From Nipponacmea schrenckii (Eukaryota > Mollusca > Gastropoda > Lottiidae): 64,000 bases of DNA. A program made the position numbers and the translations under genes. The notes under the pieces are model-generated. The model saw nothing but the letters and a program-made list of their open reading frames with translations, made no database searches and was not told the DNA's origin. Below, piece by piece: positions 51,001-55,263 of the stretch. The DNA lies in assembly GCA_030562195.1 (NCBI GenBank), contig JAUJPP010000003.1, positions 20,119,398 through 20,183,397 on the forward strand, given 5' to 3'. The first letter of the stretch is position 1. Each line of letters starts with the position of its first letter.

Positions 51001-54000
51001 GTGGGGTTCTTTCTGAATCCAATGACTGGAGGGGAGCCGAAAATGTTCCGACAACATGTGACGCTGACAGGGTATGCCAATTTTGTTTGACATATTGGAC
51101 TAAATTAAGTGCAGTGGGACTGGGTTTTCTTCAGTGCATTGGCTGAAGAATTGGGTTTGTTGATTGCATCTTGCGATCTTGCTGCACAATAGCCGTCTGA
51201 GTCTGCAAGACGGTAGTTAAAGATCCAGTGAGTCCGGCTTCGTGAAGTGGCGGCTATTGGATCCTTGATCCTGACTGTGAGATGGCCCTGGAAAGCCAAA
51301 GCGCAGCCTTTTGCTAGGATTAGTATCCTCCACTCTCTCTAGAACAGTCGTTCTGGAACTGGATGTGGAAGCAGAGTCATTGAGTCTCTCACCCCTCTGT
51401 CAGACAATCATGTAGACCTACACGCTACAATAAGGGCATCTCCGGCTTCACTCTCACGGATTTTTTTGTCATTTCACCCCCATAGTAAAATGACAACTGA
51501 TTCCTCAAACCTCAACTTGATGAGGAATGAATGATCAGAGAGAGCTTCATCATTTAACAACTAGATACCAAGCATCAATCCAGAGAAAATACCAAAAATT
51601 TGGCATTTTCCACAAAAAAGAAACACAAATGGCACGCCTCCGCGCCATTGTTATTACGTCTTGGCAACCAAGCAACAGTAGCGCTTTCACTGAGGTCCTC
51701 CATGAAGCGCCTCCATACACCATAGGGCCTAGGGTATAAATAGAAGGAATGTGGCCCAGCAGCAACAGTCTCCCTGAAGAGTACAAATTGTACAAAACGC
51801 GTCGGAGCGAAACAAAGATTCTCTAAAGAGAAAGATTCCTTAACTCTTTAATTTTTTTGAATATAGGGTAGATGTCTATTGATTAGGCTGGTGCTGAAAT
51901 ATATAGCTATTAAACTAAAAGCTTAAAGTTTACCTGAGTTGACAGCTTCTTTACACATAGCTACCATTAACTTAGAATACTTGGCTATTTTTTCAGCTTG
52001 TTTGATGGATTCGGGTACTAATTGATCAACTGGGAATACTTTACTAACTAAACCTAAACAAAATTGAATCATTTCATGGGTCAAGTATTCAAAAGCCTTT
52101 AATGAATAAATTTAAGTTTAAAGTTTGTCACTTGAAAAAGCTTTGTTCAATACAATATAACCTATAACCAAAATAAAAATTTTGACTTCTAGTACCATAG
52201 ATATCAGACTGAATATGAGAATGTTGTAAATATAAACTGTAAGTAGCCACAATAGCAAAAAAAATACGAAGTCAAGAAAATATACTTTGAATAACCATTA
52301 TACCCTTTCCCATTGTAAGACAAGAGACTTGGTGGGCTGGAGTAATGTAAGTTGTATGATTGACAAACCTGAGGCTAAAGCATCTTGTGCATTCATTCTA
52401 TCTGCTGTTAGAATCATCTCCATAGCTTTTGATTTACCCACAGCTCTTATTAATCGTTGTGTCCCACCAGCACCTAAAAATACATATACTTGTATATATA
52501 TAAGATTTGTATTTTTAAACAAATTGTACGTGGAGTATTGTATATTTATTTTGTGGTCATGTACTTGATCGCCGGAACATATATCTGTCCATTTGATACA
52601 CATGTACTTGTGTATTTTTAGTATTTCAGACAAATTGTATATTGAGATATTATGTATTTTCGATTTTTTTCTTTCTTTTTTTCTTAATTATATATATACA
52701 AGTAAATAATAAACAGATTTTCTCAAAAAATGATTACTTAAATATCTTACTGTAACTTACCTGGTATTGTACCCAATGTTATTTCTGGCTGACCAAAATG
52801 TGCTTTTTCACCAGCATAAATAATATCACACATCATAGCTAACTCACAACCACCACCCAACTATAAAAAATCATTTAACCAATTTCAAAATGGGAGCTTT
52901 GATTTCAATATGGAAGGAGTGATATCAACATGGGAGGAGTGATATCAATATGGGAGGAGTGATATCAATATTGGAGTGGTTATTTCAATATGGTATCTGT
53001 GATTTCAATATGGGAGCTATGATTTTAAGATGAGAGGAATGATATCACTATGGGAGTTTTGATTTCAATATGGGAGGTTTAATTTAAATATGGGAGAAGT
53101 GATATAAATATTGGAGGGGTTATTTCAATATGGTATCTGTGATTTCAATATGGTAGGTGTGATTTCAATATGGTAGGAGTGATATCAATAAGGAAGCAGG
53201 GATGTCAATAAGAAAGCAGGAAATTTAATATGGGAGCTATGATTTTAAGATGAGAGGATTGGCAAAACTATAGATGGAAGCTTTGATTGCAATTTGGGAG
53301 GATTTAAATCAATACGGGAAGGGTCATTTTTATATGGGAGCTATGATTTCAATATGGGAGCTATGATTTCAATATGGGAGCTATGATTTCAATATGGGAG
53401 CTATGATTTAAAAATGGTAGGAGTGATATCAATATAAGAGGAATGATTTCAATATGAGAGCTGTGATTTCTCTATGGGAGCTTGATTTCAATATAGGAGG
53501 AGTGATTTTAATAAGAGAGCTGTGAATTCAATATGAGGGCAGAGATTGGTTGCAGATATTTGGAGTTCAATAAAGTACCACAGTAATTGAAATAAGGTCA
53601 AACGAATCTATTAGAACAGTCTGTTCATTATTTCTAGAAAGAAATTAATTGCCTTTGCTCAACTCATGAGTCCAAACCCAAAGTTTAGAGCTGAACTATT
53701 TCTGATGATTCATGTTGATTCAACAGCCTAACATAGTAGACCAAGACTATATTTATGGTCTTTATTGGTATTTGAAGAGTCATGAACCATTTTATATAAT
53801 TCAGGTCTCATGTGCAAACAAAGTTTTTTTAAATTTGAAAACACAAAGGCGAAACATACAGCATGTCCATTTACTGCCCCAATCAGTGGTTTTCTACACT
53901 GAGATATTCTGTCTAAAACTTCTGGAAAATTTGTTTTGAAAACTTTATCGAAAGTCTTTCGTGACATTTCAGCTATATCTGCACCAACTGGAAAATAAGG

Positions 54001-55263
54001 ATTAGATTTTGTACAATACATACAGCAAAACCATTAACAGCAGCAATAACGGGCTTCTTGCAAGTGGCAACATGGTTCCAATGACTGAGAAAATTCCCAG
54101 AAAACACTTCAGAAAACTGTCGATGCTGCATTTCCTTTATATCCGCACCAGCTTAAAAACAAAATAATAGAGTTTTATATGGTAAAATTATCTAATGCTA
54201 ATTCAAGATGTAAATCATAGTTCTTGTCCTTATATCCATCCAAATTATAATTGATCAGTCATGAAGCAAATCAATTGAAAAAAAAGAATGCCCCTTCAAT
54301 AATGAGAAAGCTTACCTGCAAACGCCCTTTCACTTCCTGTTAATACTATACAACCAATAGTTTTATCATTTTCAAATTCTCCTAAAACTTGACCAATTTC
54401 TTTCATTAACCCATCACATAAAGCATTTAAAGCTTTTGGTCTGTTTAATTGAATAAAACCTACATTCTGATCATTGCCTTTCTTCTCTGCTTTGATAAAT
54501 TCATATTCTCCTAAGATATAAAAATATTGGGATTTAATTCTTAGGTACAAAAGTCAAACCTTTCTTTTAAAAAGTGACACTTTGGCTAAATATCTTGAAA
54601 GACCCTCATTTTTAAGCAATATAACCGGAGTTTCTGTAATTTCAAATTGAGAAATTTATATTCAAACATTTGCACATAAAATTATGTTTAAAGGGATCGC
54701 TATCAAGGAAAGTGACAAATAAATAATATGGCATTTGTACAGTGTTTCAACAACAATTAATTTCCAATCTTTTATGTACAATTCAGTTATATAATGATAT
54801 TATAAAATTTGAAACAGTATGATTAATAAATTCAGTTCAATGAAGTAATGATATATATAATTTAAGTTACATCGATAAAATAGAATGAAATTTATAATAT
54901 ACAGGAACAGTTTATTATCAAGGTACCACTTCTTGCAGTGGAAGAATATATGTATATTCTAATACATTCATTAAGGATGTCAGTTTTTGAAAATGTCTAA
55001 TCAGTAAAAACAGAGAAGTTATTGTAGTCTGTAACCCAAGGTCAAGAACGTAGATTGATTTAACTCCCTTGAATGAATAAAGGCAATCGACTTCCAAATT
55101 TCTTGCATTAAGTGAATATTTTTAACCAATTTTTTATCGCCAAAGAAATCTACGAACCTGTTGCCAAACTCCTCACGAATGTCCAATTTGTGCCATGGTT
55201 TGAAGAATTTGCTGAGAGCAATTTAGATACTTTACTCAATGTATTTCTTGCTAGTGCAGCCAT
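48040..55263 (-). CDS. ECHS1: Mitochondrial short-chain enoyl-CoA hydratase, 8 exons plus an alternative exon 3
   Basis: Hydrates trans-2-enoyl-CoA in mitochondrial beta-oxidation and valine breakdown. Exons: 55263-55158, 54510-54316, 54151-54024 (3a), 52860-52761, 52473-52369, 52053-51934, 50415-50348, 48105-48040. They total 888 nt (295 aa; the vertebrate enzyme is about 290). The basic, Ser-rich start (MAALARNTLSKVSKLLS) is a mitochondrial presequence. Core motifs: GFIQLNRPKALNALCDGLM, AGADIKEM, VIAAVNGFA-LGGGCELAMMCD (oxyanion Gly and first catalytic Glu), FGQPEITLGTIPGAGGTQRL (second catalytic Glu). The C-terminal end is NDRKEGMTAFTEKR. A second exon 3 (53860-53987) has the same length and phase. 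The donor of exon 1 (GTTCGT) is weak. Identification is firm. Confidence 0.96.
48402..48875. mobile_element. TTAA-flanked MITE in ECHS1 intron 7
   Basis: TTAA at both ends (48402-48405, 48872-48875). Terminal inverted repeat AGGGATAATAGGCGTTAGAA at left, mirrored at 48852-48871. The interior has no ORF of note. A related but truncated left end lies at 58257. Confidence 0.82.
48959..49118. repeat. 62-bp tandem repeat, about 2.5 copies
   Basis: Units begin at about 48959, 49021 and 49083 with GTATTTGAATAGTGATGAAC and are nearly identical. Located in ECHS1 intron 7. Confidence 0.85.
49137..49280. repeat. Seven AAAACGGTAAC motifs in 145 bp
   Basis: The 11-mer AAAACGGTAAC recurs seven times at irregular spacing of roughly 12-25 bp, partly as a composite with CAACTCCRCT. 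It lies directly after the 62-bp repeats in ECHS1 intron 7. Confidence 0.8.
50505..51060 (-). pseudogene. Penelope-like element fragment with GIY-YIG-type endonuclease region
   Basis: On the minus strand, SPPVIGFRKNPTLRDILTSA (about 51030) is the end-of-RT motif of Penelope-like elements. It is followed by CHSRDYNICAIISKNE, LIYLITCKSCNKQYTGETKR (the GIY-YIG position) and MRITEHLSDIRSRREKPVWKHFNLRGHS, with the stop at 50508. The RT core is missing. It is inserted in ECHS1 intron 6, same strand as the host. Penelope elements are retroelements usually found near telomeres or dispersed. Confidence 0.8.
51061..51845. mobile_element. Penelope terminal-repeat-like sequence
   Basis: More GC-rich than its surroundings and continuous with the Penelope fragment. 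It carries the hammerhead-like motif at 51770-51807 and ends near CGCGTCGGAGCGAAACAAAG. No RT core is visible. I read it as a pLTR-type terminal region, possibly joined in inverted orientation, because the ribozyme is on plus while the protein fragment is on minus. Confidence 0.5.
51770..51807 (+). ncRNA. Degenerate type I hammerhead ribozyme (Penelope-type)
   Basis: In order: stem I 5' strand CTCC (51770-51773); core CTGAAGA (CUGANGA, 51774-51780); stem II GTAC-AAATT-GTAC (51781-51793); core AAA where GAA is expected (51794-51796); minimal self-complementary stem III ACGCGT (51797-51802); cleavage-site C (51803); stem I 3' strand GGAG (51804-51807). Everything fits except one core base, G12 to A, which should abolish cleavage. 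The tiny palindromic stem III is typical of retroelement hammerheads that work as dimers. Confidence 0.6.
52880..53545. repeat. About 20-bp minisatellite (GATTTCAATATGGGAGCTAT)
   Basis: About 30 or more imperfect copies of a 19-21-bp unit; variants end in GGAGT, GCTAT, GTATCT or GAGGA. It fills most of ECHS1 intron 3, directly between the alternative exon 3b (53860) and exon 4 (52860). Confidence 0.9.
53860..53987 (-). other. ECHS1: ECHS1 alternative exon 3b
   Basis: 128 nt, flanked by an AG acceptor (TTATTTTCCAG) and a GTATGT donor. It reads VGADIAEMSRKTFDKVFKTN, continues RKPLIGAVNGHA, and is about 47% identical (20 of 43 residues) to exon 3a at 54024-54151, which reads AGADIKEMQHRQFSEVF through KKPVIAAVNGFA. 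Both exons start in phase 1 and end in phase 0, so either fits between exons 2 and 4. Including both would shift the frame. The gap between them is only 36 bp. Confidence 0.85.

Follow-up and report, generated by a model that had tools for sequence, protein, structure and literature searches.

The stretch of DNA considered here (the window) comprises 64,000 nucleotides of the gastropod Nipponacmea schrenckii (contig JAUJPP010000003.1, positions 20,119,398 to 20,183,397) and carries on its minus strand, from 55263 to 48040, a complete gene for the mitochondrial enoyl-CoA hydratase ECHS1. The gene has eight exon positions with GT-AG junctions throughout, and position 3 is occupied by two exons, 3a and 3b, which are 128 nt long each and lie 36 nt apart. 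An earlier note, made from the sequence alone, had pointed to the pair as mutually exclusive versions of exon 3; its coordinates, the equal lengths of 128 nt, the phases, the AG/GT sites and the 36-nt spacer all proved exact on re-check. The parts of the gene are listed below; residues follow the numbering of the rat enzyme, obtained by counting back from Glu144.

55158..55263, minus strand: coding exon 1, with the start codon and a likely mitochondrial targeting sequence; spliced frame open
54316..54510, minus strand: exon 2, constitutive; donor CAG/GTAAGC, 8/9 match
54024..54151, minus strand: exon 3a, canonical a-type; Ala98 (oxyanion), Lys101, Leu117, Trp120
53988..54023, minus strand: 36-nt spacer between 3a and 3b; GT...AG ends, branch-like CTAAT
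53860..53987, minus strand: exon 3b, b-type; Ala98 kept, Ala101, Pro117, Leu120
52761..52860, minus strand: exon 4, constitutive; catalytic glutamates in GGGCE and PEI
52369..52473, minus strand: exon 5, in the spliced frame
51934..52053, minus strand: exon 6, in the spliced frame
50348..50415, minus strand: exon 7, in the spliced frame
48040..48105, minus strand: exon 8, in the spliced frame, carrying the stop codon

The two versions of exon 3 and their splice sites

Exons 3a and 3b are alike in phase, being entered after one base of a codon and left at a codon boundary, and inclusion of 3a alone or of 3b alone gives a protein of 295 residues, here called form A and form B, respectively. Form A is an ordinary ECHS1: its best match among solved structures is the rat enzyme (1DUB, 395 bits), and Ala98, the two catalytic glutamates, Lys101 and Trp120 are all present. 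It is 97.3% identical (253/260) to a Lottia gigantea model, with 95% identity over the segment encoded by exon 3a, and 77.5% identical to Patella caerulea, values that point to a lottiid limpet. Compared with the human and rat enzymes, form B keeps the catalytic frame, i.e., the oxyanion Ala98 and both catalytic glutamates, and has Ala and Leu in the places of Lys101 and Trp120. Against NCBIfam, whose models are bacterial, neither form reached the cut-off among the 25 families listed. A shift of form B toward one known subfamily was considered and is not used: from A to B the scores against solved chains mostly drop, several rise slightly (among the chains listed, 5zai from 206.6 to 212.5 bits and 2ppy from 120.7 to 131.2), and the pattern is read as an apparent drift toward the general crotonase pattern.

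At the protein level 3a and 3b share 20 of 43 residues, which agrees with the earlier estimate of about 47%. When the window is searched with 3a by tblastn, 3b is the one further hit with E under 0.01 (8e-11; 3e-11 in the reciprocal search), and the same method finds no third exon-3-like copy in the window. Among 20,000 composition shuffles of 3b the maximum is 9 residues in common with 3a, against the 20 observed, and 2.9% of the shuffles are open in frame. The nucleotide sequences agree at 66/128 positions, a blastn comparison does not pair them, and the synonymous distance dS is saturated and not computable; the pair is therefore probably old. Matches by codon position amount to 25/42 at the first, 25/43 at the second and 16/43 at the third, a distribution that, to judge from the codons, is one of constraint at the level of the protein. 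Adjacent, homologous and equal in phase, the two exons have the properties by which tandem duplicated exons are recognised.

Either exon alone keeps the reading frame, and both together or neither break it, as is expected of mutually exclusive exons. Joining 3a to 3b or 3b to 3a, or skipping both, leads to a premature stop at most about six codons past the wrong junction, and in a transcript that retains the 36-nt spacer between 3a and 3b the stop comes four codons past the spacer; the earlier statement that joining the two exons breaks the frame is right. Any leak of the system would in this way meet a stop codon and its transcript would be degraded, rendering splicing errors harmless.

In alpha-tropomyosin, donor and branch point are reportedly spaced too closely for its two exons to be joined. 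ECHS1 resembles steric exclusion of this type by the geometry of its spacer, the branch site being a candidate only: the A of a branch-like CTAAT lies at +22 relative to the 3a donor and 15 nt before 3b. An alternative branch-like motif, TTAAT, lies inside exon 3a and, as the branch point, would likewise keep the 3a donor from being used with 3b. The steric limit for simultaneous assembly of U1 and U2 is reported to be about 50 nt between donor and branch point (PMC7969005). A branch point inside the 36-nt spacer would lie at most 36 nt from the 3a donor, and 22 nt at the best branch-like site; this falls below the limit, and 3a should therefore not join 3b. A vertebrate parallel is found in OGDH, likewise a mitochondrial metabolic enzyme, whose duplicated exons 4a and 4b are described as exclusive because the branch point sits too close to the donor upstream; the OGDH spacer measures 118-131 nt in birds and mammals and works with distant branch points, whereas that of ECHS1 is 36 nt as a whole (PMC7969005). 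The remaining introns of ECHS1 are 164-2242 nt long.

The donors of 3a and 3b are one and the same nonamer, GCTGTATGT, and are the weakest of the gene's eight (5/9 match to CAGGTAAGT, as compared to 6/9 to 9/9 for the others); both acceptors are pyrimidine-rich. Since equally weak donors give neither exon a built-in advantage, the choice between them is likely set by factors acting in trans. That one exon, 3a or 3b, is used to the exclusion of the other is predicted with high confidence. The intron before exon 4 also harbours a minisatellite (52882-53535) with a 20-bp unit in about 32.5 copies, which ends about 22 bases from exon 4.

b-type segments in gastropod proteins

Two protein searches, with form B as the query (best 120 of 7,997 scored) and with a seven-sequence b-type profile (best 120 of 7,999), together gave 162 different proteins, from which 167 exon-3 segments were cut out: 10 b-type, 156 a-type and one fitting neither, with one truncated a segment of Plakobranchus omitted. 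For other species the evidence on a and b consists of these database proteins, mostly gene predictions, and applies to the protein level only; exon lengths elsewhere are derived from the protein segments with junctions assumed equal, and the match in frame is not used as evidence. Clustering of the database at 90% identity can hide b forms. The b set was picked by residues; by plain similarity the b segments of Gigantopelta and Plakobranchus are slightly nearer to 3a (by 3 and 4 score units). Counts over 11 b segments combine 3b of the window with the ten database rows, three of them from one snail species, and omit the middle segment of a three-segment Biomphalaria glabrata model (Lys101, Pro117, no Trp120). 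A search with the exon 3b region only returned two b-types and missed known ones; it is insensitive, and its silence is uninformative.

Among the matches listed, all ten database b segments belong to proteins named as gastropods, namely Patella, Haliotis, Gigantopelta, Pomacea, Littorina, Physella, Biomphalaria glabrata (three models) and Plakobranchus. With Patella in Patellogastropoda, the b-type spans five subclasses: Vetigastropoda, Neomphalina, Caenogastropoda, Heterobranchia and Patellogastropoda. It is absent from those proteins whose names assign them to bivalves, annelids, arthropods, fish or other groups among the best 120 of each search, a survey that did not extend to cephalopods and chitons. 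The earlier note had proposed to look for the exon pair in ECHS1 of other molluscs, and predicted proteins of eight gastropod genera do carry a b-type segment; neutral decay of 3b in related species, which the note had named as evidence to the contrary, is not what they display, the diagnostic residues being kept across the b segments. The conservation in relatives expected of mutually exclusive exons is thus seen in database proteins of all five subclasses.

In four of the six a/b pairs compared (Pomacea, Haliotis cracherodii, Littorina and Physella) the two proteins are identical on either side of the segment. The three-segment Biomphalaria glabrata model is identical to the b form of this species upstream only, and the cross-species pair of Biomphalaria pfeifferi and B. 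glabrata downstream only. Identity of a and b outside the segment is as expected of alternative exons of one gene. In Patella caerulea, a 354-residue model corresponds to the a form plus 58 residues, i.e., to 128 + 46 nt read through; the implied spacer of 46 nt would again be short, and has probably misled the annotation of this model. Between the window and Patella, the b segments are identical at 31/43 residues and the a segments at 34/43, and Gigantopelta is represented by the b-type only among the matches listed. The middle one of the three exon-3-like segments in the Biomphalaria glabrata model is degenerate-looking, and there is perhaps a third copy of the exon in this lineage.

A tree of the segment (44 columns; 35 rows, of which 33 were chosen from the database and two are the window exons) separates the nine b rows from the rest by a branch supported at 98/98, which favours a single origin over repeated duplication. 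The b clade lies outside the gastropod a rows, three b rows have long branches, and with 44 columns little else is resolved; an older duplication with later losses may also fit this topology. The presence of b in five subclasses, its grouping in one clade and the a/b identity outside the segment together make it likely that the duplication dates from no later than the origin of those subclasses.

Active-site residues and the role of form B

Two residues that are all but constant in the a segments are missing from every b segment. Trp120 occurs in 156/156 a and 0/11 b segments, the latter having Leu (7), Phe (2), Val (1) or Ala (1), and Lys101 in 155/156 a and 0/11 b segments, with Ala (8), Glu (2) or Pro (1) instead. 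Conversely, Pro117 is found in 11/11 b and 0/156 a segments, and residue 96, Ala in 156/156 a segments, is Val in 9/11 b segments. Gly97, Ala98, Asp99, Met103, Lys128, Pro129, Val134, Asn135 and Gly136 are invariant in all of them. Lys106 is present in 8/11 b versus 18/156 a segments and might take the place of the lost Lys101 charge. The solved chain nearest to 3b, Trypanosoma cruzi ECH, has Leu at the position aligned with 120 and retains Lys101.

In human ECHS1 the amine of Lys101 is reported to hold the phosphate of the enoyl-CoA, and nutrient-driven acetylation of this residue to inactivate the enzyme; the K101Q exchange virtually abolishes specific activity (Vmax about five-fold down, Km doubled), that of K101R barely affects it (PMC5587591). 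The bulky Trp120 of the monofunctional hydratase is described as barring a twisted acyl pose seen in MFE1, which has Leu75 there; the substrates of MFE1 include long linear chains and bulky bile-acid intermediates bearing a 2-methyl group, and its efficiency on the short C4 substrate is far lower (PMC5715344). The Leu of form B at the place of Trp120 is the counterpart of this Leu75. Form A would then be the ordinary ECHS1 and form B a second mitochondrial enoyl-CoA hydratase in which one wall of the active site is different: the MFE1-like exchange of Trp120 for Leu would make the acyl pocket roomier, and loss of Lys101 would weaken or alter the grip on the CoA phosphate and abolish any response to Lys101 acetylation. 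We give such an effect of exon 3b on pocket and acetylation an even chance. The suggestion in the earlier note that the choice of exon could alter the substrate range has in this way acquired specific residues, Trp120 and Lys101, and as to the effect itself it is still a prediction.

Taken as a whole, the best reading, and in our judgement a probable one, is that 3a and 3b are mutually exclusive exons, sterically enforced, which provide a second ECHS1 with a wider, acetylation-blind active site. Several observations weigh against it. The near-complete loss of activity in human K101Q implies that B may have lost almost all of its activity instead of being re-tuned. AlphaFold models of the Pomacea proteins have a mean predicted local distance difference test score (pLDDT) of 68 for b and 72 for a, with block means of 49-63 over residues 101-130; this confidence is too low to inform on the pocket, and the models were used for the fold only, which for the b form best matches human ECHS1 (2hw5, Foldseek E 1.8e-31). 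The model from Lottia gigantea, the closest relative, has only the a version. Moreover, 12 entries without a species name, on contigs of 1.0-1.5 kb, resemble snail ECHS1 of the a-type (they are among 27 segments with a one-residue-longer a form, which is that of named caenogastropods and heterobranchs), and no unnamed entry is b-type among the matches listed, which suggests, subject to the clustering of the database, that b is the lesser form and may be rare.

ECHS1 is a hexamer, and with the exons just as exclusive, B could be a weakly active regulatory subunit that lowers or tunes A in mixed hexamers. We hold this to be doubtful, if possible: the effect of losing the Lys101 charge on the human enzyme (PMC5587591) and the absence of Lys101 from 11/11 b segments speak for it, whereas b segments keep Gly97-Ala98-Asp99 and the other invariant residues, Lys106 may replace the charge in 8/11 of them, and Leu at the position aligned with 120 is also found in ECH of Trypanosoma cruzi, whose solved chain matches 3b best (Lys101 is kept there). 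The equally weak donors and the two pyrimidine-rich acceptors mean that something else must choose between the exons, and this, along with the minisatellite of about 32.5 20-bp copies about 22 bases before exon 4, is in favour of a splicing regulator or competing RNA pairing as the main cause of exclusion, the short spacer being a by-product of the duplication. This explanation is unlikely in view of the implied Patella spacer, which is short too (46 nt), as expected if it is kept for steric reasons, two spacers being known in all.

That 3b is a dying duplicate gone out of use is very improbable. The unnamed short-contig entries without a b-type, among the matches listed, and the degenerate-looking middle segment of the Biomphalaria glabrata model, which indicates that copies may decay, would fit this explanation; against it stand the open frame of 3b despite saturated synonymous divergence, the constancy of the diagnostic residues in five subclasses, the use of b by database isoforms and Gigantopelta, b-type only among the matches listed. 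Translation of both exons with the retained spacer in one longer protein is how the 354-residue Patella caerulea model is annotated, and its likelihood is next to nil: the corresponding form of the window stops four codons past the spacer, that of Patella is open because the implied spacer is 46 nt, and the fold would probably not survive 58 extra residues placed next to the oxyanion hole.

Granted sterically enforced exclusive exons, a more speculative proposal can be made. Gastropods would obtain by splicing alone a second ECHS1 whose pocket is wide, as in MFE1, and which lacks the Lys101 acetylation switch, serving branched or bulky enoyl-CoAs and staying on when nutrient excess shuts the ordinary ECHS1 off; in intertidal animals it would perhaps be used in reverse during anoxia, as the exon choice in COQ2 re-tools mitochondria for low oxygen. 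We regard this as rather unlikely in its entirety.

The kind of system is well known, the nearest cases being COQ2 6a/6e and OGDH 4a/4b, and the ECHS1 case, apparently new, has an unusually direct link to residues of the active site. COQ2, too, is a mitochondrial enzyme with adjacent, equal-length, mutually exclusive exons, described in C. elegans, other helminths, annelids and molluscs (134 nt in C. elegans, compared with 128 nt in ECHS1); one exon is universal, the other lineage-limited, and the core of the enzyme is remodelled (PMC7434440, PMC12403961). It is a different enzyme, for which a substrate switch and transcripts are reported, whereas the b form of ECHS1 is known from sequence, and, unlike the COQ2 pair, in gastropods only among the matches listed. 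As in OGDH, the isoforms would differ in a regulatory input, Ca2+ in that case and, by prediction, Lys101 acetylation in ECHS1 (PMC7969005). In the open-access literature, with subscription journals mostly outside, no report of mutually exclusive or tandem-duplicated exons in ECHS1 or an enoyl-CoA hydratase was found; work on mutually exclusive exons in gastropods and molluscs, open-access and covered partly through titles and the beginnings of abstracts, yielded no ECHS1 case, and neither ECHS1 nor the word enoyl occurs in an abalone paper or in the main text of a paper on human tandem duplicated exons.

If both forms are made, the active-site wall of a core enzyme of beta-oxidation and branched-chain amino acid metabolism is chosen by splicing, a choice that probably predates the divergence of five gastropod subclasses. 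It would amount to a natural experiment in which Trp120 (acyl pocket) and Lys101 (CoA phosphate and acetylation switch) were altered together and kept so. ECHS1 would also be, after COQ2, the second mitochondrial enzyme through which molluscs may re-tool their metabolism by the swap of one exon.

The wider window and the assembly

The assembly to which the window belongs comprises 399 Mb. The locus is repeated on the same contig, 29.6 Mb away (49745734-49809733), without a mismatch over at least 79,734 bases that include the whole window. In view of this identity the second locus is rejected as an independent copy; it is probably an assembly duplicate, adds no evidence and makes copy counts in the region unsafe.

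Rfam and tRNA scans of the window returned no matches. An open frame of 1147 residues (34250-37693, minus strand) with endonuclease and reverse transcriptase domains belongs to a non-LTR (long terminal repeat) retrotransposon that is apparently intact in frame. A further reverse transcriptase frame (6490-7956, plus strand) is flanked by arrays of a 161-bp repeat at 3553-4714 and 11283-13301, the left one inverted relative to the array at 11283-12554. Moreover, the minus strand encodes the N-terminal domain of a calcium-activated chloride channel (CLCA) at 16495-16947, and two mutually similar frames at 1363-1848 and 17969-18409, also on the minus strand and without a Pfam match, may, judged by eye, represent C-terminal portions of CLCA genes in a tandem family.

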